A stretch of 64,000 nucleotides of DNA. It comes from Nitrospira sp. (GTDB lineage: Bacteria; Nitrospirota; Nitrospiria; Nitrospirales; Nitrospiraceae). This document shows, one piece after another, positions 28,828 through 44,655 of the stretch. Below the pieces are notes generated by a model that was not told the DNA's origin, ran no database searches, and was given only the letters and a program-made list of their open reading frames with translations. Both the position numbers and the translations under genes were made by a program. Location: assembly GCA_005116835.1 (NCBI GenBank), contig SWDM01000018.1, positions 427,993 through 491,992 of the forward strand, in the 5' to 3' direction. Positions within the stretch are counted from its first letter, which is position 1. Every line of letters starts with the position of its first letter.

Positions 28828-30075
28828 CTAAGAGTGAACCTTGGGCTCTTTGACGAGGGTGTGCCCCACAAACCCGGAAAATGTCAGGCTGACGGACGCG
28901 ATTGCCAAATAATGCTTGAAGGTTCTTATCGCAAACTCCACATCTTTGACTTTGCTGTTCTGTTGCAAATGCTCTCGAATCTTCGGTTCAGCCTTGCAAA
29001 AATTTGCAAACCAGGCGTCGAGCGTTTTCGGATAGGACAAATGCGGTAACTTCTGCGGATCTACAACACTAAAATATTTCCTGAAGTATCTCATGTTGGA
29101 AGAAAAGTTCGGACAAGCTCCGTACGGAAAAATGTATTTCAGAAACCATCGATCCGCTTTATAGAACCATGACTCCGAATAGATCGAATGCATCAGCGCC
29201 TGTCCGCCTGGATTCAGCGCCCTGGCAGTTTTCGCATAGAGGTCATCGAAGTCGCTGATGTGCTCCAACATGCCGATGGAAATGATGTAGTCGTACGTCC
29301 CTTCCATGTCATGGACATTTCTCAATTCCACCGTGACCAGATCTTGCAAGTGTCTCCGTTGAATTTCTTTTGTAATGAAACGATGCTGTGCGCTGGACAG
29401 GGTGAGACCTTTGGCACGAACGCCGAATCGCTCCGCCATGAAAAACAAGACCCCTCCCCACCCGCAACCCAAATCGAGCAGGGCCTTTCCCCGGCTGTTT
29501 CCATCGATCCCCATTCGCTTGGCATACAATTCCAGTTTGTTCGTTTCAGATTCTTCAAGAGTCTTGGTCTCCGGGTCCCATTTTCCGCACGAATACATGC
29601 GATGATCCCGATCGAGCCAATAGTGGAAGAATGTATTCGAGTCGTCGTCATTCTCGAACCAGTCGCTGAGGGAATAATGGTTGTCGATGGTCGCATTTTC
29701 TCGGGGCCTCGAAAAATATACGCCTGCTCTGGCCCGGACGGCTGCAATCATATCGAAGATCGAAAGTTGCCGGAGAATGCGCGGCGAAACGGCGTAGACA
29801 CAGATACACAAGAACTCTTTATAGTCTGCATCCTTCACCTCGATGAGCCCCTCGGAATACCCTTCGCCCAACCCCATATTGCCTTCCAGAAATATTCTTT
29901 GAAAGAGGCGCTCGGCATTGTGAAACGACACATCCACAATTCTGGAGCCACTGCCGATCACAGGCTGAGGGACGCCATCGAACGCAAACCGGAAACTGAT
30001 CTCCGGCCGTTCCTCCCCAACATAGGCACGAGCTACCTTTAAGAAGATTTTCTGTTCTCGCGTCAGTCCTTTCAT
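28828..30075 (-). CDS. cfa: Cyclopropane-fatty-acyl-phospholipid synthase family methyltransferase
   Basis: A 415-residue protein with the SAM-binding motif LLDLGCGWGGVLFFMAE in the second half and the family phrases YSLSDWFENDDD, YSCGKWDPETKTLEESE and MLEHISDFDDLY. The enzyme transfers a methylene from SAM to double bonds in membrane lipid acyl chains. GGGGGA lies before the chosen ATG; a TTG seven codons earlier is less likely. The next gene downstream encodes a fatty acid desaturase transcribed towards it, consistent with a lipid-modifying pair. Confidence 0.9.
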   Translation of the reverse strand: MKGLTREQKIFLKVARAYVGEERPEISFRFAFDGVPQPVIGSGSRIVDVSFHNAERLFQRIFLEGNMGLGEGYSEGLIEVKDADYKEFLCICVYAVSPRILRQLSIFDMIAAVRARAGVYFSRPRENATIDNHYSLSDWFENDDDSNTFFHYWLDRDHRMYSCGKWDPETKTLEESETNKLELYAKRMGIDGNSRGKALLDLGCGWGGVLFFMAERFGVRAKGLTLSSAQHRFITKEIQRRHLQDLVTVELRNVHDMEGTYDYIISIGMLEHISDFDDLYAKTARALNPGGQALMHSIYSESWFYKADRWFLKYIFPYGACPNFSSNMRYFRKYFSVVDPQKLPHLSYPKTLDAWFANFCKAEPKIREHLQQNSKVKDVEFAIRTFKHYLAIASVSLTFSGFVGHTLVKEPKVHS

Positions 30076-30164
30076 AAATATTTCCCCCGCATTCAATCAG
30101 TGTCCTCAACATCAGTAGCCTTTATCCGCACTATTCATGAACGCTTCTGTTGCAATCGCTAATG

Positions 30165-30266: not shown

Positions 30267-31184
30267 CTACCCCGCAATGTCCCCAAAACCATCTGACATT
30301 GAGTTGCGTGGCCCTATCCCGACCCGCCTGCCGGCATCGCACCTGACCAGCCCCTCGGCGAGTCCAAGCTTGGACAACGTGTAGATCAGCCACTTCGACG
30401 GATCGACGTTGTACCAGAGAGGACCGTTTCGATAGTCTCGCGGAAAGGTGTGATGGTAATTATGGTAACCCTCTCCCAGCGTGATGAGCGACACCCACCA
30501 ACTGTCCCGGCTGGAGTTCGACCGGCTATAGGGCTGACTTCCCCATAGATGGCAGACGGAATTGATGCAGAATGTGGAGTTCAGCACGAGAAAGATCCGT
30601 CCGACACCGGCGAGCATAAAGCAACCCAGGCCACCCATCCAACCATTGTAAAAAAACCCGACGAGAAACGGCAAGACCAGTCCAGATAGCAGGAGGGGGA
30701 CATACCAGCGATGCTGCCACATCACCACAGTATCTGCGAGCAGCCAATGCGTGTATCGTTCGATCCGGTGAGCGCGTTTCGTGAAGAGCCAGCCACAGTG
30801 GCTGTACCAGAATCCTCTCCTCGCATTGTACGGATCATCCTCTTGGTCCACGCGCGTATGGTGCCGAACATGATTGGCGCTCCACTTCAGCGCCGAATTC
30901 TCCATCGCCCAGCTGCCGGCTACTAGAAACGCCACTTTTACCCAGTCAGGGCACCGGAAGCTGCCGTGGGAAATCATCCGATGGTACCCCACGGTAATGC
31001 CAAGTCCGCTGAGGAGATAGAGAATACCGGCCATGGTCCAGTCCAGCTTCGTATAGCCATAGACGTAGCCGAAGAGCGGCACCCCGATGAGAGCCGACAA
31101 TGTCACCAGTGAAAATAGCCCTATCGTTGGGATATCCAATGTTCTTTTGACATCCTCCGAGGATGTTTTCAGCTGGCCGCTCAT
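30267..31184 (-). CDS. Acyl-CoA/acyl-lipid delta-9-type desaturase
   Basis: A 305-residue membrane di-iron desaturase with three His boxes: HRMISH, HVRHH and HNYHH (in EGYHNYHHTFPRDY). Hydrophobic segments lie between the boxes, as in stearoyl-CoA desaturases. It would introduce a double bond that the cyclopropane synthase downstream could then modify. The chosen ATG follows AGAGGCTCC; an earlier frame start adds 21 residues without support. Confidence 0.9.
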   Translation of the reverse strand: MSGQLKTSSEDVKRTLDIPTIGLFSLVTLSALIGVPLFGYVYGYTKLDWTMAGILYLLSGLGITVGYHRMISHGSFRCPDWVKVAFLVAGSWAMENSALKWSANHVRHHTRVDQEDDPYNARRGFWYSHCGWLFTKRAHRIERYTHWLLADTVVMWQHRWYVPLLLSGLVLPFLVGFFYNGWMGGLGCFMLAGVGRIFLVLNSTFCINSVCHLWGSQPYSRSNSSRDSWWVSLITLGEGYHNYHHTFPRDYRNGPLWYNVDPSKWLIYTLSKLGLAEGLVRCDAGRRVGIGPRNSMSDGFGDIAG

Positions 31185-31418
31185 AGTTGGAGCCTCTTTA
31201 TTTAATAAGCTACGCTTCACGACTCGCGAACGCGTTGAATTTCGCACCGCGCATTGCCCGCCACTCTCGCCCGTCTCGCTTGAGTCCGATATCGGCGATC
31301 AAAACAGAAGCACTCATGACAAGGTGGGGTAGGGCCGTACGGTCACCGCGAACATGCGCAGCGTCGGGCGAGGGGAAAGTGGAACGAGGCGAGAGGAGAG
31401 TTATTTCTGGCGGACTCA

Positions 31419-32060
31419 TCATGAAAACTTGTCCGGAAACTGCTTTACCAATGCCGCGGTTAGAGTATCCGCGATGACATAGACATGTTGTCTCATCATC
31501 GACCAGGTTTCCTCTAGCTCCGCATACTCCTTTTTCTTGTATTGGTTGATTTGGAGAACATGGTGGGCTCCATGCGCTGCGATCAGGCCACGAATTGTGC
31601 CTTTCGGCAGATTGTGAGGATTGACTCCGTTGAAGAATACATCGATGTCGTCGGCATTGGATGCCATGAGGGCAAGTGCAGCATCCTGCTGATCCCTACT
31701 CCCCGCGATGGTGGCTTCGGAATAGTCTTTGACCGAAGCATAATGAGCGGCCAGCAGGGCATAGAGGTTTTCAGCCCTCGTTCCGCCGTAGAACGGCGTA
31801 AACGTGCTCGCAATCTGTTTTGCATTGGCCAGGACTTGCTTGTCTGCGGCATCCAGCTCAACCGGATTGTTCTTGGCGTTGAACAACACGACATGCTGAA
31901 TCATAAAAATATGCCCCAGCCAGAGATCGCGAAGGGTCTTCTCCATCTCCGCCACATGGGCCGGATCCGCCTCCTTGACCGCTCGCGGTTCCTGAGTACA
32001 ACCCATCAAGACAACGAGCGCGAGGACTGACACTGCCATAGACAGATATGTCTTGCCCAT
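31419..32060 (-). CDS. Helical lipoprotein, sigma54-controlled, function unknown
   Basis: A 213-residue protein with a lipobox (VVLMGC, Cys near residue 21) and a helical mature domain. The order of motifs, LWLGHIFMIQHVVL, ASTFTPFYGG, FFNGVNPHNLP, and MADTL-like IADTLTAALVKQFPDKF, resembles a four-helix family of unknown role also found in Firmicutes (from memory, not tested). Repeated His residues (HH, HGAHHV) may bind metal. A sigma54 promoter (32131-32144) and a palindromic enhancer-like site (32301-32326) lie upstream, matching those before the multicopper oxidase gene. AAAGGGAGAG precedes the ATG. Confidence 0.7.
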   Translation of the reverse strand: MGKTYLSMAVSVLALVVLMGCTQEPRAVKEADPAHVAEMEKTLRDLWLGHIFMIQHVVLFNAKNNPVELDAADKQVLANAKQIASTFTPFYGGTRAENLYALLAAHYASVKDYSEATIAGSRDQQDAALALMASNADDIDVFFNGVNPHNLPKGTIRGLIAAHGAHHVLQINQYKKKEYAELEETWSMMRQHVYVIADTLTAALVKQFPDKFS

Positions 32061-32130: not shown

Positions 32131-32144
32131 GCAACAGCCGTGCC
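32131..32144 (-). promoter_or_regulatory. Predicted sigma54 promoter (-24/-12)
   Basis: On the minus strand GGCACGGCTGTTGC matches the -24 GGCAC and -12 TTGC elements with the required 12-base GG-to-GC spacing. It lies 71 bp upstream of the lipoprotein ATG, leaving about 60 nt of leader with the AAAGGGAGAG site. Confidence 0.7.
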
Positions 32145-32300
32145 TGGACTCGCTCGTAGGTTCTCCACAGTCATTTCATCGACAGATACGGAAGTTAGCT
32201 TCAGGGGGAAATAATGTATGCGGTAATAGTTCTGGCGCGTTCTTCTACAGACTGAGACCGGCCAGGGGCTCGCTAGAGTCGATGCGAATAAACACAATGC

Positions 32301-32326
32301 GTTACGCTGTCTACTTTCTTGGACAG
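32301..32326 (-). promoter_or_regulatory. Predicted activator-binding palindrome (sigma54 enhancer)
   Basis: The plus-strand sequence GTTACG is followed by CTGTCTACTTTCTTGGACAG, a CTGTC...GACAG palindrome. An almost identical 26-bp element lies at 39207-39232. Both are in the same orientation and 157-160 bp upstream of a sigma54 promoter, as expected for an enhancer-binding protein site. Confidence 0.65.
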
Positions 32327-32359
32327 CAACTCGCGTGAAATGGGGCATTGCGGGTAGGA

Positions 32360-32453
32360 TTGGTTTATCTGGTTTATTTAGTTTGTTTTGTTTATTTGGT
32401 TAGTTTCGTTCAACCAAACAAACCAGATGAACCAAACAAACCAAAAGAACCAG
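32360..32453. repeat. R1 inverted repeat
   Basis: Left arm TTGGTTTATCTGGTTTATTT, centre TTAGTTTCGTTCAACC, right arm AAACAAACCAGATGAACC. It ends 2 bp from the stop codon of the ChdC-like gene. Confidence 0.8.
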
Positions 32454-32454
32454 T

Positions 32455-33168
32455 TCATCCGCCGAGTGTATCGAGCGTTTCCTTGAGGCTCTTGCGGATG
32501 CAGGTGAAAATCGGCGTATCGCGCAGCGTATAACGGGAGCCTTCGGTTTCGCGGAGCGCCATCACCAGGTCCAGGAAGTCTTCCGGCTTATCACTTTCAA
32601 ACGCCACCACCCATTCCTGGTCATCCAATCCGAAAGAATAGGTCGTATTCAGCTTCACCGAGGGGAAGCGATGGCCGACTTCAATATGTTCGTCCATCAT
32701 GCCCTGCCGCGCCGCCTTCGTGAGCAGGAACCATTTGCGGGTCTTCAGGAATGGATAGACGAAAATATACTTGCCTTTTCCCGGAACGACGGTCAGACGC
32801 TTGCTCTCTTGATTTTCGTGGGTGTGGTGCTCCACGTACACCGAGCGTTTGGTGATCGCGAGATAGGAATAGGGAGTGCTCAGGTATTGTCCCAAGCCCG
32901 AAGCCAGGATTTTCGTGGTCATGTCCTGGAACAGCTCCAGATCGTAACTGATCCGCCAGAGCATGATGTCGCAATCGCCTCTGATGCCGACCGAAGAGTA
33001 TGCTACGACGAGAACTTTGCCTGTGTACTCCTCGACCGCACGGATAAATTCCTGTTTGCCCTTGGTGCGTTCACTCTCAGGCAGGCGCCGCCAGGCCGGA
33101 TCGATTTTATAGAAGACGAAGTTCACATATTGCCGTCTCGGTGCTTGGGTCGGTTCAGGGGTCGACAT
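32455..33168 (-). CDS. Chlorite dismutase-family protein, ChdC/HemQ-like
   Basis: A 237-residue protein with the family motifs YPFLKTRKWFLL, MMDEHIEVGHRFP and NTTYSFGLDDQEWVVAFE. The His in DEH is the probable haem-proximal ligand. The position 13 residues later, where true chlorite dismutases have a catalytic Arg, is Asn here, and the end RYTLRDTPIF is typical of coproheme decarboxylase (HemQ/ChdC) relatives. Haem synthesis is therefore a better guess than chlorite breakdown. ACGGAGGA precedes the ATG. It is single, between a sigma54-controlled lipoprotein gene and a Cys-rich gene. Confidence 0.8.
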   Translation of the reverse strand: MSTPEPTQAPRRQYVNFVFYKIDPAWRRLPESERTKGKQEFIRAVEEYTGKVLVVAYSSVGIRGDCDIMLWRISYDLELFQDMTTKILASGLGQYLSTPYSYLAITKRSVYVEHHTHENQESKRLTVVPGKGKYIFVYPFLKTRKWFLLTKAARQGMMDEHIEVGHRFPSVKLNTTYSFGLDDQEWVVAFESDKPEDFLDLVMALRETEGSRYTLRDTPIFTCIRKSLKETLDTLGG

Positions 33169-33240: not shown

Positions 33241-33744
33241 TCACCGTGATCCCTGCACCTTGAGATTAGGACACCAGTCCACTTCGGATTGTATCGCAAT
33301 CGCCTTCAATTGAGCGCGAATGGGTGGAGCGCCGATCTCCCGGACGACTTGCAGGCAGCGCATACAGATGAACTGGCAATGGGAGATGCAGGCGCGATCC
33401 GGGCAGCTGCCCACATCACCAACCCTCGCGACCTGCCGCGCACAATGGGCCTGAGGGTTGAGTTCCGTCAAGCTTTCGCGGTAACACCTCAACACGCTCA
33501 AGAACTTCGTCAGACTTTCGACAGGCCGCCCATCGATCGACACCTGGACCTCCGAAAGCTCGGCTGCCGCCTCAATCAGTCGCTCCACGAGATCGAATGA
33601 CAGGGACAGATCGGAAAAGATAGCCGTGTACGCCATCGTCCCACCCTCCGTCTCAATCCGAAACGTCGGAGCGGAACGGTACAAGCTGATCAATAGGGGC
33701 AATGCCTCAGACTTGGAATGGGGAACCCGCAGGGCCAAACGCAT
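33241..33744 (-). CDS. Cys-rich protein of unknown function
   Basis: A 167-residue protein not recognised as a known family. The first half (MRLALRVPHSKSEALPLLIS) looks like a small alpha/beta domain. The second half is rich in Cys: VLRCYRES, AHCARQVARVGDVGSCPDRAC then ISHCQFICMRCLQ, which could bind zinc or an iron-sulfur cluster. The start was placed at the ATG after GGGAG; the upstream extension is encoded by repeat-like GAGAGGCGAGAGG sequence. It is 72 bp upstream of the ChdC-like gene on the same strand. Confidence 0.6.
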   Translation of the reverse strand: MRLALRVPHSKSEALPLLISLYRSAPTFRIETEGGTMAYTAIFSDLSLSFDLVERLIEAAAELSEVQVSIDGRPVESLTKFLSVLRCYRESLTELNPQAHCARQVARVGDVGSCPDRACISHCQFICMRCLQVVREIGAPPIRAQLKAIAIQSEVDWCPNLKVQGSR

Positions 33745-33943
33745 AGGAGAACTCCCTGATTCCCTGGCCACTAACCTCTCGCCTCTCGCCTTAGCAACCG
33801 GTTTCCACGGCAACAGCGTGGCAGGGCCGAAGTAGTCAACCGCATCCTTGAGATTGGAAAACATCTCTGCGGCATTCGCCGATCCACTCCGGCGACAGGC
33901 CTTTGACCGACTGACTCGCTTCTCAGCCCCTCAACTAACTGTT

Positions 33944-34024: not shown

Positions 34025-37000
34025 CTAGTTAGCCTTCATCGACACCGGTACGGACTGCGCCGGACTCTGCTCCTCGGCTTGCTGTGTGGCCGGCACCTGC
34101 CCGCCCAGCGGCAAGATCGCCCGGCTGTCGCGGTCGAGCACCGTCAGCGTTCCCCAGTGGCCAGCGTCGAGATACCCCGGCCGCTGGTTCAGCCACAGGT
34201 AATTACCAGGGATCCCGTTCGGACCTCCGGCTCCACCATGCAGCCAGGCATTGATCACCTCGGTGCCGCCGAACTCCATGGTGCTCACGAGGTCCGCCCC
34301 GCTCATATAGGGCTCGTGTTTCCACTCATGGCCCGACACGCTGAACAGTTGTATCTGTTCGCTAAAGGCGCCCAGCACATGGATCACGACCGGATCTCCC
34401 ACATGCGCCGCGATGCTCGGGGTCACAGGCTGATCCCCCGCCTTGACGCAGACAAACACTTCGCTGTAGGCACAGCCCTTCTCGACCCGGTAATCGGTCG
34501 GTTCGGACCGGTAGTTCACCGCCGTCACGCCTGCCACCTTTTGGATGTAGGGCATGAAGCTGGTGCCGATGATGTTGTCCTCGTCCTGGAACAGGAGGGC
34601 GAAGGACCGATAGTTCTGTCGATTCTCGTTGCCCGGAAGATTTCGATCCACAATAACATCTGCCCGCCAGGAACTCTTTTGGGCCAGATCTTCGCCGGTC
34701 GCAGGATCGCGATATTGCGACCCGCGCGGCCCGATGATGATCGCACCAAAGAGCCCGTTTCTTGGATTTTCAATCACGTTGCCCCAGTCTTGAATCAGGG
34801 CTGCGTTCTCCCCGAATTCCGGATGGGCGAAGAACGTGTACGTTTTCCTCTGCCCAGGCGCCACCGTCTGATCGCCAGGGTTGTTCCCGGCATTGATCCC
34901 CATCGATTCCTTGGGATCGAATGCCACATGGTCTACGTGGAACCCAGCCCGCTCCTTGGCCATCTCGTTCTTGAGATTCACCTTGATGCAATCGCCGACG
35001 TTCACGTGCAGGGTCAAGGGACTCGGTTCAATGCTGCCCGAGGCAACCTTGGTCTTTTCGCCTTCGAGCACGTACATCTTGCCGTTTTCATTGCCCAACA
35101 CCATCTTCCGTTCCATGTCCACTTCCATCACGCCAGGCGTTCCTTTGTTGTAGCGAATCGCCTTATCGATGGCTGAGACATTGAACGTCTTCACCGGCGC
35201 GTTGGCCGGGCAGACGGACTTGGCCGACTGCGGAATCTCTTCCCGGCCCGGCAGAGGCTTCAGCGTGGCATCCGCCTTGTCCAATACCCGGAAGAGACCC
35301 CAGCTGCCTTCCGCGAAGTGCGATGCGCGACCGCTATAGTAGGGATAGTCGCCCGCCATCTGTTGCGGTCCTCCTGCGGCAGGAATAGCGGCATCGTACC
35401 GCTCTCCGATCACCACATGCAGCGAGCTTCGGGGGATGGAGTTCGCACTGTAGCGCTCCATCGGGAACCAGTGGCCGCTGATGTGCCAGGAATGCACTTC
35501 GTTCGCCGAGCCTTCGATCAACCGGACCACGATCGGGTCGCCCAAGTAGGCCCGCAACATCGGGGTCTCGGGATCGCCGTGGATCAGGCTGCTGAACAGC
35601 TGCGACGGATCAGGGTTGTTGGCCAACCGCACCGACAAGGGCTCCACACGCATATTGTACCCGCTGCCCGTTGTCGATTCTCCGCCGTTCAAAAACTTAA
35701 ACGGCGACATGTTGAGTTTGGCCGGATAGACCGCAGAGGGAGTGCCGTCTACCGAGACGGCCCCAACCCTTGCCTGGGGATTATCAGCCGTGATGAGTTC
35801 CGATGTCCGAGGATTGGAATCCATGACCTGGGTCACGATTTCACGGAAGGAGCCTTTGATATGAGCGGACACCGGTTCGAGAGTGTGAATGTCGGCCACC
35901 GGACCGCTGCGGACTTCTTTGCCGGTCATTGGGTCATGATAGGTAGACCGGGGCGGTTCGGCGATGAACGTGGAGTAGAAACCATGACCCCACCCATCTA
36001 ATCCAAACACATGGTCGTGCCAGAAGGTGGTGCCGAAATCGGCATCCACATACCACCGTTCGCGAATCCACTCCACCGACACGATCTCGCCCTTCTTATG
36101 CCCGTACTTCAGCGGCCGCTCGAACGTGACCGTATTGCCTTCGATCTTGCTGATCCGAGCCGACTCGAATCCGCCCACTTCGTCCATGCCCACGCCCAAT
36201 TCGGTCTTGACGTGATAGCGTGAGGCGTCCTTCACCTTGATGCTGCTCGCACCCTTGGCTACATCGGCCTCAATCGTTGTATTCATCGGCACCGGCATGC
36301 CCTTGCCGGGATGCTCGTCCTTCAAAATCGTAAACGGTCGCAACGACATCTCGTATGAGAAGCCGATGATCGGGCCATCCGACGCCTGTGTATCGAACTG
36401 GAACATGTGAGGATGCAGGTTCGTCTTGCTGGAGAACCCTTGCCGCACATCGTCTTTCAACTCGCTCTTGTACACGACGTCGATGCAATCCTGCACGTTG
36501 CCGCGAATCACCAGCGGCATCTGTTTGGCGGGATTCTTCCGAACTTCCTGCTCTTCTTCATGCAGCACGTAGAGCAGTCCTCCCGGATCCACAATTGCCG
36601 GCGTCTTGGCTGTCGCCTTCTTCAGCGTAATCGGCAACGCAATCGCATGGATATTGAAGTACTTCATCGGCGCCCCTTCCGGGCACAGACTCCAGGGCCC
36701 CTGCTCGCCCGGTCTCGGCGGTTCAGTGGAGTTGCTCCCGTCGTCGCGGCGATGGATCGGCTCCAGCCACGGCGCGCCACTGTGGCTCGGAGAGAACGGT
36801 ACGCGCCGGCCCAAGTGCGGCCGTAACCACGGCCAGGCGATCTTGCCCGTTTGCGGATCGAAGAGAATCTCCTGCCGTTTGCCAGGCGTTGCCGACTTGT
36901 AGTTGACCCACTCATAGGTGGTCTCAGGCTCGCTGAGCGCTTTGTTGCCATCCCAGGCCCAGTCGTTGACGGTTGCGTCGTAGGCCAGGGTCTGCTCTTT

Positions 37001-38779
37001 CTCGCTGGTCTTCTTGCCCGGCTTGCCTTGCGGCGTGAGCATCATCTCCACCCAATCCTTGATGGAGACCTTGACCGGGTTGGCTTTCCAATCAGTCTTG
37101 TCCTTGGTGATCTCGTACTTCTTGCCGCCGTACCAATCCACCGTGGTGCCGACCAACTTGTCCGACGGAGCGCCGGTCTTCATCTTGCCGACTCGATCCG
37201 GCAGTTCGACCAGTGGCTTCATCACATCGGTCTGGAAACCAGGCTGCTGCAGTGTGTTGTACACACGCCAGAAGCCCCACATACCGGTCACATAATGTTG
37301 TGGAATGTGGCAATGGAACACGAACTCCCCGGCCAATGCTTGCAGGCCCCCCGAGCCGCCCTCGATCACCTGATCGTAGACCTCTGTCGGCCCGATGGAC
37401 TGCACGTCCAAACGGTCTGACGGGTCGCTGATCGCAGGGAATTTTACCGGCCCATTCTTCGACAGTGCGAAGTCGAGATTGCTGTTCCCCGGCTGCCGCG
37501 CCCAGCGAATTGAGCCGCCGTGGAGGTGATGCGAATGCACGATTTCCGAGCCGCCCGCCATCCGGAACTTGGCCGGATCGCCGAGGTAGGACCGGGGAAC
37601 GGTCGTGGCAGGATCGCCAAAGGTATAAGACCCATAGGCCATGGACTCATCGCCGTAGAAGCCCATGTGGGCCTGAAGCTCAATGCGTGTGCCGTGTGGC
37701 TCGCTTCGGTAATTCAGTAACCGCGCGCCTGGCCGATAGGAATCGGTATGTGGATCGCGCTGGGGCAGCATTTCGCCTTTCTTGTTCAAGAGACGAAAGG
37801 CTTCGTCCCCGGCCTCATGATAGAAAATCGCGAATTCCCGGAAGTCCGCGCCCTTCGGATCTTCGATCATCGCTTCCCAGCCGCTCGCCATCGGCTTGCC
37901 GTCGAAGGGGCTGAGATAGCGTGAGCCACGCGGCTCTACGACGAGCATGCCGATCATGCCCTGGTTAAACTGTTCGCGCGAGGCATGAGACCGGAAAAAT
38001 CTCGCTCCCTCCTGAGTATCCGGCTTGATATACCACTCGAATGTCTGCTGCCCGCCCGATGCCACAGTGCTATCAGGATTCGAGGGAGTCGCCGGCTTGC
38101 CCGTAGCCGCCACCACCATGGATGACCCATTGATCACCAGATTGGTGGGCTCATCGGGGATCTCATTGTGCAGGGTGAGCTTGAGGCAATCGCCTTGGTT
38201 CGCCCGAATCACGAGCGGCTGGATGGCATCGCCCTGTAACCCGCTCGACACGGCGCCGGAATCGTTCTCCTTCTCCCGCGCCGTCCTATTCGCAGCCTCT
38301 TCGCCACGCACCTTCTCGACGTTCTCCTTCAGCACATACATGTAGCCCGTAAAATAGTCGAGAAACCGGCTCAACGTGATTTCAACGTTGATCGCCGAGA
38401 CGTGATAGTCCTTTACCGGAGCATTCGCCGGACAACGCTGCCCAGCACTCACAGAAACTTTTGTCGGATCCTCCGCTACCAGCAAAACGCCCTGCTGCAG
38501 CATGTGACTGTTTGCGCCGTTACTATAGCCGCCTTTCAGCCCCATGGCTTCCTGTTGGCGCTTCACCTCCTCCATCATGCGGTCGTGAAGCATCGCTCCG
38601 CCTTCGCGATAAATGACCTTCTCCGCCGATGCCGCCCCCAGGTCGTCGCCATGGTGGGTGGGCTGGTCTGCGGCCAGCCCCATCGAAGTTGTCAGCAGGC
38701 TGCTGACGAACAGCGCTGCCGGCAGTCCTGCTACCATGCGATAGGCGCGGCAGCTGCGCGAAAGTGATGCCCTTTTCAT
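34025..38779 (-). CDS. Very large multicopper oxidase (multi-cupredoxin), exported
   Basis: A 1584-residue protein with a signal peptide and repeated cupredoxin-type domains. Copper motifs in order: HSHHLHGGSIRW (near 416), FHCHIPQHYVTGMWG (near 493; His-Cys-His plus His and Met of a type 1 site), LHPHMFQF (near 793) and FWHDHVFG (near 923). The last third has further cupredoxin-like repeats (HISGHWFPMERY, ISAHVGDPVVIHVLG) without a full copper set. Size and motif order recall the giant oxidases MnxG and MofA, but substrate is unknown. AGGAGAAGGAGG lies before the ATG; a sigma54 promoter and enhancer site lie upstream. Confidence 0.85.
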   Translation of the reverse strand: MKRASLSRSCRAYRMVAGLPAALFVSSLLTTSMGLAADQPTHHGDDLGAASAEKVIYREGGAMLHDRMMEEVKRQQEAMGLKGGYSNGANSHMLQQGVLLVAEDPTKVSVSAGQRCPANAPVKDYHVSAINVEITLSRFLDYFTGYMYVLKENVEKVRGEEAANRTAREKENDSGAVSSGLQGDAIQPLVIRANQGDCLKLTLHNEIPDEPTNLVINGSSMVVAATGKPATPSNPDSTVASGGQQTFEWYIKPDTQEGARFFRSHASREQFNQGMIGMLVVEPRGSRYLSPFDGKPMASGWEAMIEDPKGADFREFAIFYHEAGDEAFRLLNKKGEMLPQRDPHTDSYRPGARLLNYRSEPHGTRIELQAHMGFYGDESMAYGSYTFGDPATTVPRSYLGDPAKFRMAGGSEIVHSHHLHGGSIRWARQPGNSNLDFALSKNGPVKFPAISDPSDRLDVQSIGPTEVYDQVIEGGSGGLQALAGEFVFHCHIPQHYVTGMWGFWRVYNTLQQPGFQTDVMKPLVELPDRVGKMKTGAPSDKLVGTTVDWYGGKKYEITKDKTDWKANPVKVSIKDWVEMMLTPQGKPGKKTSEKEQTLAYDATVNDWAWDGNKALSEPETTYEWVNYKSATPGKRQEILFDPQTGKIAWPWLRPHLGRRVPFSPSHSGAPWLEPIHRRDDGSNSTEPPRPGEQGPWSLCPEGAPMKYFNIHAIALPITLKKATAKTPAIVDPGGLLYVLHEEEQEVRKNPAKQMPLVIRGNVQDCIDVVYKSELKDDVRQGFSSKTNLHPHMFQFDTQASDGPIIGFSYEMSLRPFTILKDEHPGKGMPVPMNTTIEADVAKGASSIKVKDASRYHVKTELGVGMDEVGGFESARISKIEGNTVTFERPLKYGHKKGEIVSVEWIRERWYVDADFGTTFWHDHVFGLDGWGHGFYSTFIAEPPRSTYHDPMTGKEVRSGPVADIHTLEPVSAHIKGSFREIVTQVMDSNPRTSELITADNPQARVGAVSVDGTPSAVYPAKLNMSPFKFLNGGESTTGSGYNMRVEPLSVRLANNPDPSQLFSSLIHGDPETPMLRAYLGDPIVVRLIEGSANEVHSWHISGHWFPMERYSANSIPRSSLHVVIGERYDAAIPAAGGPQQMAGDYPYYSGRASHFAEGSWGLFRVLDKADATLKPLPGREEIPQSAKSVCPANAPVKTFNVSAIDKAIRYNKGTPGVMEVDMERKMVLGNENGKMYVLEGEKTKVASGSIEPSPLTLHVNVGDCIKVNLKNEMAKERAGFHVDHVAFDPKESMGINAGNNPGDQTVAPGQRKTYTFFAHPEFGENAALIQDWGNVIENPRNGLFGAIIIGPRGSQYRDPATGEDLAQKSSWRADVIVDRNLPGNENRQNYRSFALLFQDEDNIIGTSFMPYIQKVAGVTAVNYRSEPTDYRVEKGCAYSEVFVCVKAGDQPVTPSIAAHVGDPVVIHVLGAFSEQIQLFSVSGHEWKHEPYMSGADLVSTMEFGGTEVINAWLHGGAGGPNGIPGNYLWLNQRPGYLDAGHWGTLTVLDRDSRAILPLGGQVPATQQAEEQSPAQSVPVSMKAN

Positions 38780-38959
38780 ACCTCGGCCTCCTTCTCCTTG
38801 CTGTACCTGCCGCTATCGGCAAGTGGTTGATCTGGATCGCACGCTCAGCCGTCAGCTTTCAGTTCTCAGCCGGCAACTCAGTCCTCTCGGTCTAGCTGAT
38901 GGCTGACAGCTGTGGGCTTCTCTGTTACTCTTGGCCTTTGTTTAGAGCTGGCGAAGGGT

Positions 38960-38975
38960 TCCTCCTTGCGGAGGA
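38960..38975 (-). other. Hairpin in the long leader of the multicopper oxidase mRNA
   Basis: TCCTCC-TTGC-GGAGGA is a perfect 6-bp stem with a 4-base loop. If transcription starts at the sigma54 promoter at 39034-39047, this lies within a leader of about 240 nt in front of the oxidase gene. The rest of 38780-39030 shows no gene. Confidence 0.45.
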
Positions 38976-39033
38976 TGGGTCATTCGGAGGCCGGTCCTAA
39001 TTACCCGACCTTCGCCAGCAATTACTTTCTAGC

Positions 39034-39047
39034 GCAATCCCTGTGCC
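39034..39047 (-). promoter_or_regulatory. Predicted sigma54 promoter (-24/-12) of the multicopper oxidase
   Basis: On the minus strand GGCACAGGGATTGC fits GGCAC-N5-TTGC exactly with 12-base GG-to-GC spacing. It lies 255 bp upstream of the oxidase ATG. Confidence 0.7.
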
Positions 39048-39206
39048 GTAATGGTTCACCTGTCTCAGAAACACAGAAATGCCTTGATGAGCGCGACGAT
39101 TGTGAGTCACGTACGTCAACAACGGCCTTCACAATAGTGGGGCAGAAATCCATATGGGTAGACAGCTCCGAATGAAGTTATTGGTCAGCACTCGCAATTT
39201 CAAAGT

Positions 39207-39232
39207 GTTACGCTGTCTAAACTCTTGGACAG
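39207..39232 (-). promoter_or_regulatory. Predicted activator-binding palindrome (sigma54 enhancer)
   Basis: The plus strand reads GTTACG followed by CTGTCTAAACTCTTGGACAG. It matches the 32301-32326 element at 23 or more of 26 positions and lies 160 bp upstream of the oxidase sigma54 promoter, 41 bp beyond the stop codon of the sigma54 activator gene. Confidence 0.65.
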
Positions 39233-39272: not shown

Positions 39273-40652
39273 CTACTGGATGTGATAGCTGCGCAGCTTA
39301 TTGTAGAGGCTGGCCCGGCTGATCTTGAGAAGCTTCGCCGCCTTGACCCGATTGCCGCCGGCCTGCTGAAGCGCTTGCACGATATGCATCCGCTCCGCTT
39401 GCGTCGCAGCCCCGCGCGATACAGAGCGGAGGTCATGCGCCACCGACGTTGCTCCCACCGGTACCAGATCCGGACAACTCAACGCAGGCCCTGCCGTTGT
39501 GACGACTGCCCGCTCTATATAATGTTGCAGTTCCCGCACATTGCCAGGCCAGGGGGCCTGGGTGAGCGCCACCATCACCTCCGGCGATACCTGCCGAAGC
39601 GGCTGCCGATGCCGGCTACAAGACATCGCCACGAAATGTTCAACCAACAGAGGAATGTCCTCCCGCCGTTCCCTGAGCGGCGGCAAGCAAAGCGGCAAAA
39701 CCGCTAACCGATAGTAGAGATCCTGGCGAAACCCCTTGGACTGTACCAGCCCTGATAGATCCTTGTTCGTCGCCGAGATGACCCGCGCATCGATCTTGAT
39801 CCGTTGGTTTCCTCCGACCGGCCTAATCTCACCCTCTTGGAGGACACGCAGCAGCTTGGCTTGAAAGACCGGCGTCGTGTCTGCGATCTCGTCCAGGAAG
39901 ATTGTCCCGCCATCCGACTCTTCGAAGAGTCCCCGTTTGGTCGCATGAGCCCCGGTGAAGGCCCCCTTCACATGGCCGAATAGCTCACTTTCCAATAATG
40001 TTTCCGGCAGCGAGCCGCAATCGACGACGACAAAGGGCTTATCGCGCCGATAACTGGTCTGGTGAATCGTCTTCGCCACCAGTTCCTTGCCGGTGCCGCT
40101 CTCACCCTGAATCAACACGGTCGCGGGACTGTCCGCCACGAGCCGGATCATGGCGAGGACTTCCCGCATCGGTTCGCTCGACCCGATCAGCTCTCCCAGC
40201 GTCGATTTGCATGTCGCGTCTTCCTGCTCGACGCTCGACCGTTTCTCGGGCTTCGGACGTTCCCTGAACAACACCAGCACAGATTCGACTTCGCCACCGC
40301 TTGAGACTAGCGGAAAGGCCTGGCGCATCCCGCAGGCTGTGCCGTCTCCTCCGATGGAACAGGCCACGGATTGGACATCGGGCGAATCGTATACCTTCGT
40401 CGCGGGGCAGGTGCCGCAGGGATCGGCCCTGTGCGCGAAGGCCTGATAGCACTTTGCCTGATGGCCGGATTGTTGAGACGCACCCTCAGACCAGGCAGAT
40501 TCGTTCGCGTAGATGACGTTGAACTCGCGGTCCAAGACCGCCACTCGATCGGAGAGCCCTCCGGCTAATTGTTTGATGGCCTCCATGCGAGCTGCGAGGA
40601 TGGGATCTGTCACGGGGTAGGCGATGAAAGACTCTTGTTGAGATCCGGCCAT
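39273..40652 (-). CDS. Sigma54-dependent activator with Cys-rich PAS sensor domain
   Basis: A 459-residue regulator. Residues about 15-130 are a PAS-like domain with many Cys residues: [31 protein letters not shown]. Residues about 155-380 are a sigma54-interaction AAA+ domain with Walker A GESGTGKE, the GAFTGA loop and Walker [11 protein letters not shown] Fis-type DNA-binding helix-turn-helix ends the protein ([22 protein letters not shown]). It has no receiver domain, so the PAS Cys residues are the probable sensor of metal, redox or NO state. It is the obvious candidate for binding the 39207-39232 site. Confidence 0.9.
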
Positions 40653-40694: not shown

Positions 40695-41090
40695 TCAGTC
40701 GATTTCTCCATTCAATGCCGGACCTAACAGACGCCGAACGGCTTCTTTGAGCTCGCTGATGCGGACCGGCTTATCGAAATAGGCCTCGACACCCATGGCT
40801 AACGCATCGGCTTTCGTCTGAGCATCGCCAAATGAGGTGATCAGCACCAGCGGCACACCAGGAGCGAAGGTCCGAAGCCTGGCGATGTAGTCCAACCCCC
40901 CGGCGGGCATCCGAAGGTCTGTGAGGATCAGGGAAGGGCGCCTATCCAGCACCGACCGCAGGGCCTCATCCCCATCGGCTGCCTCCCTGATGGACACTCC
41001 CAGATCGAAGAGTTCATCGCAGAGGAGGCTCCGCATCTCTCGATCGTCTTCGGCAATCAGCACCAGGGCTTGCTTCTTCTCCAGCGTCAT
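40695..41090 (-). CDS. Single-domain response regulator (CheY-like)
   Basis: A 131-residue receiver domain with the acidic pair in LIAEDDREMR, the phosphoacceptor Asp in LILTDLRMPAG and the conserved Lys in YFDKPVR. No output domain is present. It ends 42 bp before the sigma54 activator gene and is probably cotranscribed with it, passing phosphate within the nearby kinase system (inference). The ATG after GGGGGA was chosen; a GTG six codons earlier is the alternative. Confidence 0.85.
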   Translation of the reverse strand: MTLEKKQALVLIAEDDREMRSLLCDELFDLGVSIREAADGDEALRSVLDRRPSLILTDLRMPAGGLDYIARLRTFAPGVPLVLITSFGDAQTKADALAMGVEAYFDKPVRISELKEAVRRLLGPALNGEID

Positions 41091-41353
41091 TCTTCCCCCT
41101 ACGTTCACCCTTCTTCACTCTCTCACACGATGCTGATGGGATAGAATGCACAACCCGTGCAAGCCAGCCCCCCCTCGCCAGCTGAATGCGCTGGATCACA
41201 GAACTGAGCCAACTTGCTTGAGATTTTCATGGAATGAGCGGGGCTACGGAAGGGAATGCCCTACGGTTTGGCGAGAATTGCAACAGAAGCCACTTTACTC
41301 CTGTTGCAGATTGCGACAGAAGAACACCGGCCAAGATTATTGGAAGGTTGAGT

Positions 41354-43159
41354 CTAAGGCTGAGATGGCGGGGCTTCACCCAGTGGGATCCGGACCCAAA
41401 ACGTCGTGCCCTTGCCGACCACACTTTCCACCGTGATCGTCCCACCATGCTCCTCGACGATACCCTTCACGACCGTGAGGCCAAGACCGGTCCCCTTCCC
41501 AAATTCTTTCGTCGTGAAAAATGGATCGAATACCTTCTGACGAATCTCTTCGGGCATCCCATGGCCAGTATCGGACACCCCGAGGCACAGGTGATTGTTC
41601 TCTCGCGCAAGGCTCAGCCTGAGCCTGCCCCCCTCCGGCATAGCATGGAGACTGTTCACCACCAAATTGATCAGCACCTGCAACACCTGGTCTCGGTCAG
41701 CATGGGCAGGAGGCAGACCGGCTTCAATCACCTTTTCCACAGTGATACGGCTGTGGGCAATCCGTTCCTGAAACATCTCCAGACTGTCCTCCACGATCTC
41801 ACCGAGATCGACGGCTCGTCGTTCCGGCGTCTTCCGCCTGGCGAAGGCAAGGAGTTGGTTCATCACCTTGGTAATTCGCTCGATCTGCGTGACGATGGTG
41901 GTCAGCCCCCTCTTCATCCCTTCATCGGCTGTGCGTTGGAGTAGATATTCTGCGCGACCGAGGATCACGTTCATCGGCGTGCCGATCTCGTGCGCCATGC
42001 CGGAGGCGAGTGTGCCGAGTTCCGCAATCCGCTCCGTTTTGCGGAGTTGTTCCTGGATCTGTTTGAAATCGGTAATGTCGAGGCCGGCTGCTACAACGTA
42101 CTCGACCGCGCCGTTGGAATCCCTCAGTACCGTATTCGACCAGGAAATCCGTCTGAGGGCGCCATCCTTTCCTTTCCAGTAATTTTCATAATCGTTGCGC
42201 GGCTCTCCGCCCCGAAGCCGCTCGAACACCGCTTTTACTCCCTCAACTTCATTGGGAACGATGAACAGGTCCCACACATGTCGGCCCATCACCTCTTCAG
42301 AGGAGTAGCCGGTCGTCTGTTCACACGCGCGATTGAAGCGCAGAATCCGCCCCCCCTGATCCAGCACGACCACGAGCGCCCCGGCGGTCTCCAGCACAGC
42401 ATCGATGAAGTCCCTCTCTTTCTGGAGCGTCTGTTCTGCTAATTTTCGGTCGCTGATATCCACGACCGACGCCAAGACTCTCATTCCGTTCGGTGTCTGG
42501 ATCGGATTGAGGCCGATTTCCAGCGGAAACTCCGTCCCATCTTTACGCACACCAAAAAGATCCCGCCCCTTTCCCATGGCGCGCGACTCGGAATGGGCCA
42601 TGAATTCCGCTCGGTCGCCGGCATGGTGTGACCGCATATGCTGAGGCACGAGCATTTCCACAGGCTGCCCGATCAATTCAGCCCGTTCATAGCCGAACTG
42701 CTGCTCAATCTGCCGGTTCACCAGGCTGATGGTGCCGCTCTTATCCACCATCAGTATCCCGCTCGGGGACGATTCGACCACGAGGCGAAATTGCTCCTCC
42801 GCCCGCTTGGGCTCGGTGAGATTGCGTACGATCGCCGCAAGACCGGTCGGCTTCCCATCCTCCCCCTTCACTGCAAATACGGTGACGTACACGGAAACTT
42901 GGGAACCATTCTTCCGGAGATAGTCGATTGCATATTCGACCGGCTCGCCGATCTGGATGACCTGAGCCACGACGCGATCCCGCTGTTCTTTGTGCTGTTG
43001 GGGAATCAAGTCCCGCGCATTCATCCTGAGCAGCTCTTCCCTCGAGAAGCCGGTCAGTTCGGAAAAGGCCCGATTGACGAGGAGGATGGTTCCATCCAGT
43101 GCGGCATAGCCGATCGCGTCCTTCGAGGCTTCGAAAATACCTTCAAACCGTTCCGGCAC
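41354..43159 (-). CDS. PAS-domain sensor histidine kinase
   Basis: A 601-residue kinase with three PAS domains (about 5-120, 125-240, 250-370), a HisKA domain whose H-box is LASGMAHEIGTPMNVI, and a HATPase domain with N-box INLVVNSLHAMPEGG, G1 DTGHGMPEE, and GTGLGLTVVKG. No membrane segment is visible, so it is probably cytoplasmic. It starts with GTG after AAAGGA. The NtrC-type regulator gene 116 bp upstream is the likely partner. Confidence 0.9.
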   Translation of the reverse strand: MPERFEGIFEASKDAIGYAALDGTILLVNRAFSELTGFSREELLRMNARDLIPQQHKEQRDRVVAQVIQIGEPVEYAIDYLRKNGSQVSVYVTVFAVKGEDGKPTGLAAIVRNLTEPKRAEEQFRLVVESSPSGILMVDKSGTISLVNRQIEQQFGYERAELIGQPVEMLVPQHMRSHHAGDRAEFMAHSESRAMGKGRDLFGVRKDGTEFPLEIGLNPIQTPNGMRVLASVVDISDRKLAEQTLQKERDFIDAVLETAGALVVVLDQGGRILRFNRACEQTTGYSSEEVMGRHVWDLFIVPNEVEGVKAVFERLRGGEPRNDYENYWKGKDGALRRISWSNTVLRDSNGAVEYVVAAGLDITDFKQIQEQLRKTERIAELGTLASGMAHEIGTPMNVILGRAEYLLQRTADEGMKRGLTTIVTQIERITKVMNQLLAFARRKTPERRAVDLGEIVEDSLEMFQERIAHSRITVEKVIEAGLPPAHADRDQVLQVLINLVVNSLHAMPEGGRLRLSLARENNHLCLGVSDTGHGMPEEIRQKVFDPFFTTKEFGKGTGLGLTVVKGIVEEHGGTITVESVVGKGTTFWVRIPLGEAPPSQP

Positions 43160-43275: not shown

Positions 43276-44655
43276 TCATTCCTCAGGATGGGGCTTGCCT
43301 TCGATTTCGGCGAGTTTACGATACAGGGTTTTCCGGTCGATGCCAAGGGCGTGGGCGGCCTGATATTTATTGCCGCCGGTCTTCTCGAGAATCTTGAGAA
43401 TATATTCTTTCTCCACTTCGTCCAGCCGCAGGGTCCGTTCAGCTGCGTCGTCGAGCACGCGGCGATCGCCGCGGGACCCCTGGATCGTCGCGGGCAAATC
43501 GTCGGGAACGATCTTCTCGCTCCGGCTGAGCGTGACGGCCCGCTCGATCACATTCTCCAATTCCCGCACGTTGCCGGGCCAGGCGTAATCCACCAGCATC
43601 GACAGGGCGGATTCGCTCACCCCCTGTATCTGTTTCCCGCGAGAGGCCGCGCACTTCTTCATGAACGAATCCACAAGCAATAGAATGTCTTCTCGGCGCT
43701 CACGTAAGGGCGGAAGGCGCAGTTCGATCACGTTGAGCCGGTAATACAAGTCTTCCCGGAAGCGCTTCGCCTTGACCTCTTCCGTCAAGTGCAGGTTCGT
43801 CGCCGCAATGATGCGGACATCGACGGGGGTCGGTCTGTTGGCCCCCACGCGGCGAATCTCTTTCTCCTGGATCGCGCGCAGAATTTTGGCCTGCAACATC
43901 AGCGGCAGTTCGCTGATCTCGTCGAGGAACAGCGTGCCCTTCTGTGCTTCTTCGAAGAGACCACGCTTGTCCGCCTTCGCATCCGTGAAGGCGCCTCTCA
44001 TATGGCCGAACAGCTCGCTTTCGAGCAGCTGCTCCGGAATGGCGGCACAGTTGACGGGGATAAAAGGGGCATCCTTGCGATCGCTATTATAATGGATCGC
44101 CTTGGCCACCAACTCCTTACCGGTTCCGCTCTCGCCGGTGATCAAGAGGTTCGTCGGGCTGTCCGCCACGCGCCGGATCAGGTCGAAGATCTCCTGCATC
44201 GGTTTGCTCTTGCCGATGATCTGATGAAAACTGTACTCCTTGTGGACTTCGCGTCGTAGCCTGTTCACCTCGCGCCGTAACGATGCTTCGCGGATCACAC
44301 GCTCGACGACGCGAACCAACTCGTCGTTTTTCACCGGCTTGGTCAAGTAGTCGCTGGCGCCTCGCTTCATGGCCTCGACCGCGGTATCCACCGACCCGAA
44401 GCCTGTCATGAGGATGACCCCGATGTCCGGATAGAGACGTTTGATCTCCACCAGCAACTCCGTGCCCTGCATCCCTTTCATCCGCAAATCCGTCAACACG
44501 ACGGCATAGTCTTGCTCGGCCAACACCTTCAAGGCCTCTTGTCCGCTCCCTGCTGCCGTGACCTGATGCCCGCGATCCTTGAACACATCGTGGACCAGTT
44601 CCCGCATTTCAGCATCGTCATCGACGACGAGAATCGCGCCCCAATCTTCAGTCAT
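43276..44655 (-). CDS. NtrC-family response regulator with GAFTDA loop
   Basis: A 459-residue protein: receiver domain (phosphoacceptor Asp in VVLTDLRMKGMQG), sigma54 AAA+ domain (Walker A GESGTGKE; Walker B TLFLDEISE) and Fis-type helix-turn-helix (GGNKYQAAHALGIDRKTLYRKL). The sigma54-contact loop reads GAFTDA instead of GAFTGA. AAGGAG precedes the ATG. It lies upstream of the PAS histidine kinase gene, forming a two-component pair. Its target promoters are not evident. Confidence 0.9.
   Translation of the reverse strand: MTEDWGAILVVDDDAEMRELVHDVFKDRGHQVTAAGSGQEALKVLAEQDYAVVLTDLRMKGMQGTELLVEIKRLYPDIGVILMTGFGSVDTAVEAMKRGASDYLTKPVKNDELVRVVERVIREASLRREVNRLRREVHKEYSFHQIIGKSKPMQEIFDLIRRVADSPTNLLITGESGTGKELVAKAIHYNSDRKDAPFIPVNCAAIPEQLLESELFGHMRGAFTDAKADKRGLFEEAQKGTLFLDEISELPLMLQAKILRAIQEKEIRRVGANRPTPVDVRIIAATNLHLTEEVKAKRFREDLYYRLNVIELRLPPLRERREDILLLVDSFMKKCAASRGKQIQGVSESALSMLVDYAWPGNVRELENVIERAVTLSRSEKIVPDDLPATIQGSRGDRRVLDDAAERTLRLDEVEKEYILKILEKTGGNKYQAAHALGIDRKTLYRKLAEIEGKPHPEE

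Follow-up and report, generated by a model that had tools for sequence, protein, structure and literature searches.

A predicted sigma54 regulon links an MnxG-like multicopper oxidase to a lipoprotein operon in Nitrospira

By sequence comparison, a dyad-type enhancer, the spacing behind it and a putative sigma54 promoter are conserved throughout the family to which Nitrospira sp. belongs and into a sister family, nearly always beside the gene of a sigma54 activator and usually before that of a multicopper oxidase. The most probable reading, to which we assign a probability of roughly 0.78, is that these are classical sigma54 enhancer-promoters, at which a PAS-type activator (hereafter the EBD) drives an MnxG-like multicopper oxidase and a lipoprotein operon via an upstream element, UAS1, with the regulatory cassette that contains the EBD as signal input. 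Very probably, a single signalling system turns on both the oxidase and the lipoprotein/membrane-lipid operon. The arrangement is best read as a sigma54 regulon that is new but of a known type, and it resembles MnxR control of Mn-oxidizing multicopper oxidases.

The window, i.e., the whole 64-kb stretch of DNA analyzed, contains two such regions, both read on the minus strand. Upstream of the oxidase gene, CTGTCCAAGAGTTTAGACAGCGTAAC at 39232-39207 is followed by GGCACAGGGATTGC at 39047-39034, with 159 bp separating the 26-mer from the GG of the promoter; upstream of the lipoprotein gene, CTGTCCAAGAAAGTAGACAGCGTAAC at 32326-32301 is followed by GGCACGGCTGTTGC at 32144-32131, with 156 bp in between. 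Exact CTGTC-N10-GACAG and exact GGCAC-N5-TTGC each occur twice in the window, in these two regions only. Their elements are:

39213 to 39232, minus strand: UAS1 of the oxidase promoter, dyad CTGTCCAAGAGTTTAGACAG (TGTCYA-N6-TRGACA), seen in the sequence and conserved in family genomes
39198 to 39210, minus strand: IHF-like box TAACACTTTGAAA (compare YAANNNNTTGATW), directly behind the oxidase UAS1, from position scoring over 64 non-redundant sites
39147 to 39164, minus strand: oxidase UAS2, degenerate second dyad TGTCTACCCATATGGATT, 67 bp from UAS1, with TGTCYA at that offset in 40 of 64 sites
39034 to 39047, minus strand: predicted oxidase sigma54 -24/-12 promoter GGCACAGGGATTGC, by sequence match
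32307 to 32326, minus strand: UAS1 of the lipoprotein promoter, CTGTCCAAGAAAGTAGACAG, by sequence match
32292 to 32304, minus strand: IHF-like box of the lipoprotein promoter, TAACGCATTGTGT, from the sequence
32242 to 32259, minus strand: UAS2-like degenerate dyad of the lipoprotein promoter, GGTCTCAGTCTGTAGAAG, from the sequence
32131 to 32144, minus strand: predicted sigma54 -24/-12 promoter of the lipoprotein operon, GGCACGGCTGTTGC, by sequence match

The initial annotation had described a 26-bp palindromic element shared by the two regions with the same orientation and spacing, and the exact promoter sequences at these two distances bear out the shared layout. The palindrome itself stands in part: the dyad is real, while its true length is 20 bp and the last six bases (CGTAAC) are the start of the IHF-like box. 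At dyad plus box, 27 of 32 bases are identical between the two regions; the spacer between dyad and promoter cannot be convincingly aligned, so the two regions are not one freshly copied block. The features that characterize sigma54/bEBP systems are found together here: an invariantly spaced GG-N10-GC promoter, a tandem dyad 80-250 bp upstream (UAS2 being weak at the lipoprotein promoter), an activator with a sigma54 AAA+ domain, GAFTGA and HTH, and rpoN in the genome. The genome carries one rpoN gene and three HU/IHF genes.

Genome-wide statements rest on pattern searches of the 3.94-Mb genome, for which the composite was defined as TGTCYN8RGACA-N152-182-GGCAYN5TTGC and the shifted-spacer control as that pattern with its spacer set to 260-290. 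The composite is present twice, compared with a control-based rate of ~0.011 per genome (P ~6e-5 for two), in agreement with the earlier statement that the match was unlikely by chance. CTGTC-N10-GACAGCGTAAC with fewer than three mismatches is found only at the oxidase and lipoprotein sites, and the strict dyad TGTCYA-N6-TRGACA at four places, two with a sigma54 promoter at the expected spacing and two with none there.

A search of the genome and its relatives for the dyad upstream of a sigma54 promoter, which the initial annotation had proposed, was positive in 80 of 175 family genomes, compared with 2/175 for the shifted spacer (Fisher 1.7e-26) and 1/175 for the reversed pattern; the genomes are related and not independent trials, and the Fisher values given here and below are only guides. 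The composite tracks the EBD, being present in 79 of the 152 genomes with it and in one of 23 without it, where the contig ends at the site (Fisher 6.6e-6, kinship ignored). Outside the family, it is found in 3/217 genomes of the phylum, two of them from the sister family, whose members among the Nitrospirales have the same layout with an EBD 48-52% identical. A scan of 84,980 species genomes returned 103 stretches, with about 29 matches expected in total by chance (computed from base counts); among the 80 matches listed, 54 were titled Nitrospir-. Records titled N. defluvii and N. lenta are among the carriers of the composite. Two composites (L192 and L199), inside or beside genes and otherwise unsupported, were set aside as chance. 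A Candidatus Cloacimonadota MAG (L263, L288, L303 and L309) has four copies of TGTCCA-N6-TGGACA plus GGCACACTTCTTGC with neighbors unlike the Nitrospira ones, and seems to have a distinct regulon that uses this enhancer type.

Comparison of 85 distinct composites, 64 of them non-redundant, defines the site. The logo of the 64 reads TGTCYA-N6-TRGACA, then G-(C/T)-N-T-A-A-C-N3-TTG-AWTTT. Its dyad and promoter letters are partly set by the search pattern, of which the box, UAS2, the gene linkage and the PWM test described below are independent. The segment behind the dyad matches the IHF consensus, YAANNNNTTGATW, on the other strand, and the mean score at this position is 7.4 of 9 over the 64 sites, compared with 3.7-5.6 at other offsets. 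In the 40 sites mentioned above, TGTCYA reappears 48-50 bp behind the dyad (chance expectation ~0.1), as part of a degenerate second dyad, TGTCYA-N6-TRGA. The gap from dyad to GG is 160-168 bp in 83/85 composites and 177-178 bp in the other two; helical phasing was dropped as evidence, as the gaps span 160-168 and just two sites lie near one turn further. The PWM was applied to 19 EBD neighborhoods, mostly from closed genomes with the EBD and not chosen by exact composite, with the tested copy excluded from training. It recovered a composite in 18 of them, with scores of 42-65 and at most 3.4 for reversed or shuffled sequence; in the remaining one (G048), where the EBD is present, no composite was recognizable in the neighborhood.

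The probable activator is the last gene of a four-gene cassette upstream of the oxidase gene:

43276 to 44655, minus strand: NtrC-type response regulator (REC-AAA+-Fis HTH), the second EBD of the cassette, with the variant GAFTDA
41354 to 43159, minus strand: triple-PAS sensor histidine kinase, from the sequence
41301 to 41319, minus strand: UAS-A, a different dyad, CTGTCGCAATCTGCAACAG, upstream of REC-EBD, from sequence comparison
41269 to 41285, minus strand: UAS-B, TGTTGCAATTCTCGCCA, upstream of REC-EBD, from sequence comparison
41147 to 41162, minus strand: near-consensus sigma54-like TTGCACGGGTTGTGCA before REC-EBD, ~157 bp from UAS-A
40695 to 41108, minus strand: single-domain response regulator (REC), from the sequence
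39273 to 40652, minus strand: EBD, with PAS, sigma54 AAA+ with GAFTGA and Fis-type HTH, probable activator, from the sequence

A sigma54 activator with a Fis-type domain directly upstream of the oxidase had been noted before, and the PAS-AAA+-Fis protein with GAFTGA confirms it. The order response regulator, kinase, REC and EBD is kept in nearly every neighborhood examined. Four cysteines in the PAS of the EBD (68, 79, 82 and 107) are invariant across 70 orthologues and suggest a redox or metal input, and in the response regulator GAFTDA replaces GAFTGA. In many relatives from other genera, the REC-EBD promoter matches GGCAY-N5-TTGC exactly, and in this genus its -24 box and its -12 box both deviate from consensus; its own distinct dyads and sigma54-type promoter suggest a two-tier cascade.

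Which of the two proteins would bind UAS1 is the main point on which a second explanation differs: the enhancer-promoters would be real, the NtrC-type response regulator would bind TGTC-N10-GACA, and the PAS-type EBD would act elsewhere or as a partner. GlrR, which binds TGTC(N)10GACA, is a response regulator of the same build (PMC4987338), and the NtrC-type response regulator is itself conserved along with the cassette. As the two EBDs tend to be found together (140 and 152 of 175 genomes), phylogenetic profiles cannot separate which of them binds UAS1. The gene layout does bear on it. The REC-EBD operon has dyads of its own, UAS-A and UAS-B, and must be switched on before the PAS-type EBD exists; with two dyad types and two EBDs, the simplest pairing is response regulator with UAS-A and EBD with UAS1; and the distance from the PAS-type EBD gene to the UAS1 behind it is usually between tens of bp and about 200 bp. 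From this arrangement we infer that the PAS-type EBD rather than the response regulator is the binder of UAS1, and regard the reverse assignment as unlikely.

The second target is predicted to be an operon of three genes:

31419 to 32060, minus strand: lipoprotein, 213 aa, all-helical fold, no clear PDB match
30267 to 31247, minus strand: fatty acid desaturase, a probable member of the lipoprotein operon, the order being kept in two relatives (G146 and G150)
28828 to 30096, minus strand: cyclopropane fatty acid synthase-like methyltransferase, likewise a probable member of this operon, the order being kept in G146, G150 and G141

Sequence and fold searches with the lipoprotein gave no informative relative. 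An alternative is that its site is a decayed or coincidental copy and that the oxidase alone is regulated, to which the weak UAS2 would conform, as would the occurrence of the lipoprotein gene in only 63/175 family genomes and its two paralogues in the own genome, which have no site. Against this, the operon has its own site not only in the own genome (G000) but also in G146, G149 and G150, where it is kept within diverged flanks, and in three other relatives (G136, G140 and G141) the lipoprotein gene lies directly behind the EBD, which links the two independently of the motif. We hold a decayed or coincidental copy to be quite improbable, and the regulon of oxidase and lipoprotein gene that the initial annotation put forward is supported by the family-wide conservation, the adjacency of the EBD, the lipoprotein sites of G146, G149 and G150 and the gene order in G136, G140 and G141. 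Mere coincidence of a common palindrome with a chance -24/-12 match, for which one could cite the frequency of one-mismatch -24/-12-like matches (26 in 64 kb), is already refuted by the comparative data, namely the shifted-spacer and reversed controls, the spacing, the co-conservation with the EBD, the IHF-like box and UAS2. Between the chlorite dismutase-like and lipoprotein genes, at 32340-32440 of the window, there is also an A/T-G inverted repeat (TTTGGTTTGTTTGGTT ... AACCAAATAAACAAAAC), and a similar repeat stands before REC in two other loci (L176 and L144).

The gene downstream of the 85 composites is mostly that of a multicopper oxidase, in two clades (about 90% or 52% identical). Many of these oxidase genes immediately follow the EBD, REC and EBD often standing together just upstream, and in two genomes (G153 and G158) the oxidase gene with the site adjoins a different EBD. 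The oxidase of the window and its neighbor are:

34025 to 38779, minus strand: MnxG-like multicopper oxidase, 1584 aa, with signal peptide (PDB 9bxa MnxG, E 5.6e-100)
32455 to 33168, minus strand: chlorite dismutase-family protein, between the oxidase and lipoprotein genes, from the sequence

Against the NCBIfam MnxG equivalog model, the oxidase scores 110 bits, far under the 3100-bit cut-off. The genome also encodes a paralogue of it (C10:122602-127233), 70% identical, which lacks a site. The chlorite dismutase-family gene is possibly read through from the oxidase promoter. At 33241-33864 of the window, a 207-aa protein with no Pfam match and a Cys-rich C-terminal part is encoded, which recurs beside multicopper oxidase, chlorite dismutase or oxygenase genes in relatives. 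The long 5' leader of the oxidase (38900-39034, minus strand) contains a strong hairpin, GCTGGCGAAGG...CCTTCGCCAGC, with a z of about -3; as the leader matched no Rfam family, no riboswitch is claimed. Other genes found behind composites include a 2OG-Fe(II)/HalD-like oxygenase cluster, a CRP-type regulator with CsbD, and outer-membrane proteins. The enhancer precedes the HalD-like 2OG-Fe(II) oxygenase gene in L172, L196 and L202, in L172 behind a gene for an unassigned 344-aa secreted protein, and encoded nearby in L202 and L172 is a chlorite dismutase or a protein related to the 207-aa Cys-rich one.

In the accessible literature on Nitrospira with sigma54 and multicopper oxidase or with EBP regulons, we found no description of such a regulon, consistent with the initial view that the regulon is not a known one. 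The accompanying view that the motif is not known does not hold, as TGTC(N)10GACA is the published enhancer of GlrR/QseF (PMC4987338, PMC8745638). Upstream of E. coli glmY (L253, 7342-7700), GlrR dyads are located at -230, -197 and -134 from the glmY 5' end, and an IHF-like box, TAACTCATTGATTT, lies directly behind the -197 dyad, in the order of the Nitrospira sites. The two systems share TGTC-N10-GACA, sigma54 dependence (predicted for Nitrospira), several dyads at -130 to -230 (two of them 63 bp apart) and the IHF-like box. They differ in that GlrR is a REC-type response regulator acting on small RNA genes, whereas the likely activator in Nitrospira is a PAS-type EBD without REC and its targets are the oxidase and the lipoprotein operon; among the target genes identified behind composites, there is no glmY/glrK-qseG neighborhood or target.

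Pseudomonas putida GB-1 is described as requiring the kinases MnxS1/MnxS2 and the sigma54 activator MnxR for the oxidases mnxG and mcoA, whose promoters are predicted to be IHF-sigma54 dependent (PMC11409713, PMC11930936). Common to both, as predicted for Nitrospira, is a sensor kinase and a sigma54 activator controlling an MnxG-type multicopper oxidase; MnxR, however, is a response regulator, whereas Nitrospira has a four-gene cassette with two EBDs, one RR-type and one PAS-type. PrsK/PrsR-sigma54 is an earlier regulon found by comparison, in which a cis motif plus -24/-12 precedes scattered PEP-CTERM genes and the distribution tracks the sigma54 activator, as here (PMC1569441). Unlike the Nitrospira dyad, the PrsR motif ends in TTTACA, with an average spacer of 63 nt and other targets. 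Against both the GlrR and the PrsR models, the EBD (P0001, which has PAS and no REC) and the NtrC-type response regulator (P0005) fall under the cut-off. The best-scoring model for P0001 is that of NifA, again under the cut-off. The NifA enhancer, TGT-N10-ACA, is a TGT...ACA dyad at a similar distance, while that of Nitrospira is TGT-N12-ACA with fixed C/G and YA/TR flanks, and no nif genes are involved among what was examined.

Based on these comparisons, we propose a mechanism in which the sequence elements with their family-wide conservation and linkage are observed, and binding to DNA, transcription, the cascade's order and its signal are predictions. The histidine kinase and the NtrC-type response regulator would probably drive the REC-EBD operon via UAS-A/B and its own sigma54-type promoter. 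The Fis-type EBD would then bind UAS1 and the degenerate UAS2 ~67 bp further on, an IHF/HU-type protein may introduce a bend at the box that follows UAS1, and the EBD would hydrolyze ATP to open the promoter, where sigma54-RNA polymerase is expected to wait at GGCAC-N5-TTGC. A second redox or metal input may be added by the Cys-rich PAS of the EBD. The cascade would lead to expression of the MnxG-like multicopper oxidase and, within this genus, of the operon for lipoprotein, desaturase and cyclopropane synthase. More tentatively, this may be a lineage-defining cascade of the Nitrospirales, from kinase and response regulator to a redox/metal-sensing Cys-PAS EBD and on to an MnxG-like oxidase with swappable envelope genes (membrane-lipid genes, HalD-like oxygenase, outer-membrane protein). 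If true, such a cascade would be an unrecognized metal or oxidant response of nitrite oxidizers.

Nitrospira, which are major nitrite oxidizers, do not lend themselves easily to manipulation, and knowledge of their regulation is scant. With the predicted regulon, an enhancer layout like that of GlrR, IHF-like box included, would extend to a phylum distant from the enterobacteria. The regulon would also tie the oxidase to membrane-lipid genes and suggests metal, redox or oxidant conditions, and a conserved, readable enhancer together with its putative regulator may offer a way to learn when Nitrospira use their giant multicopper oxidases.
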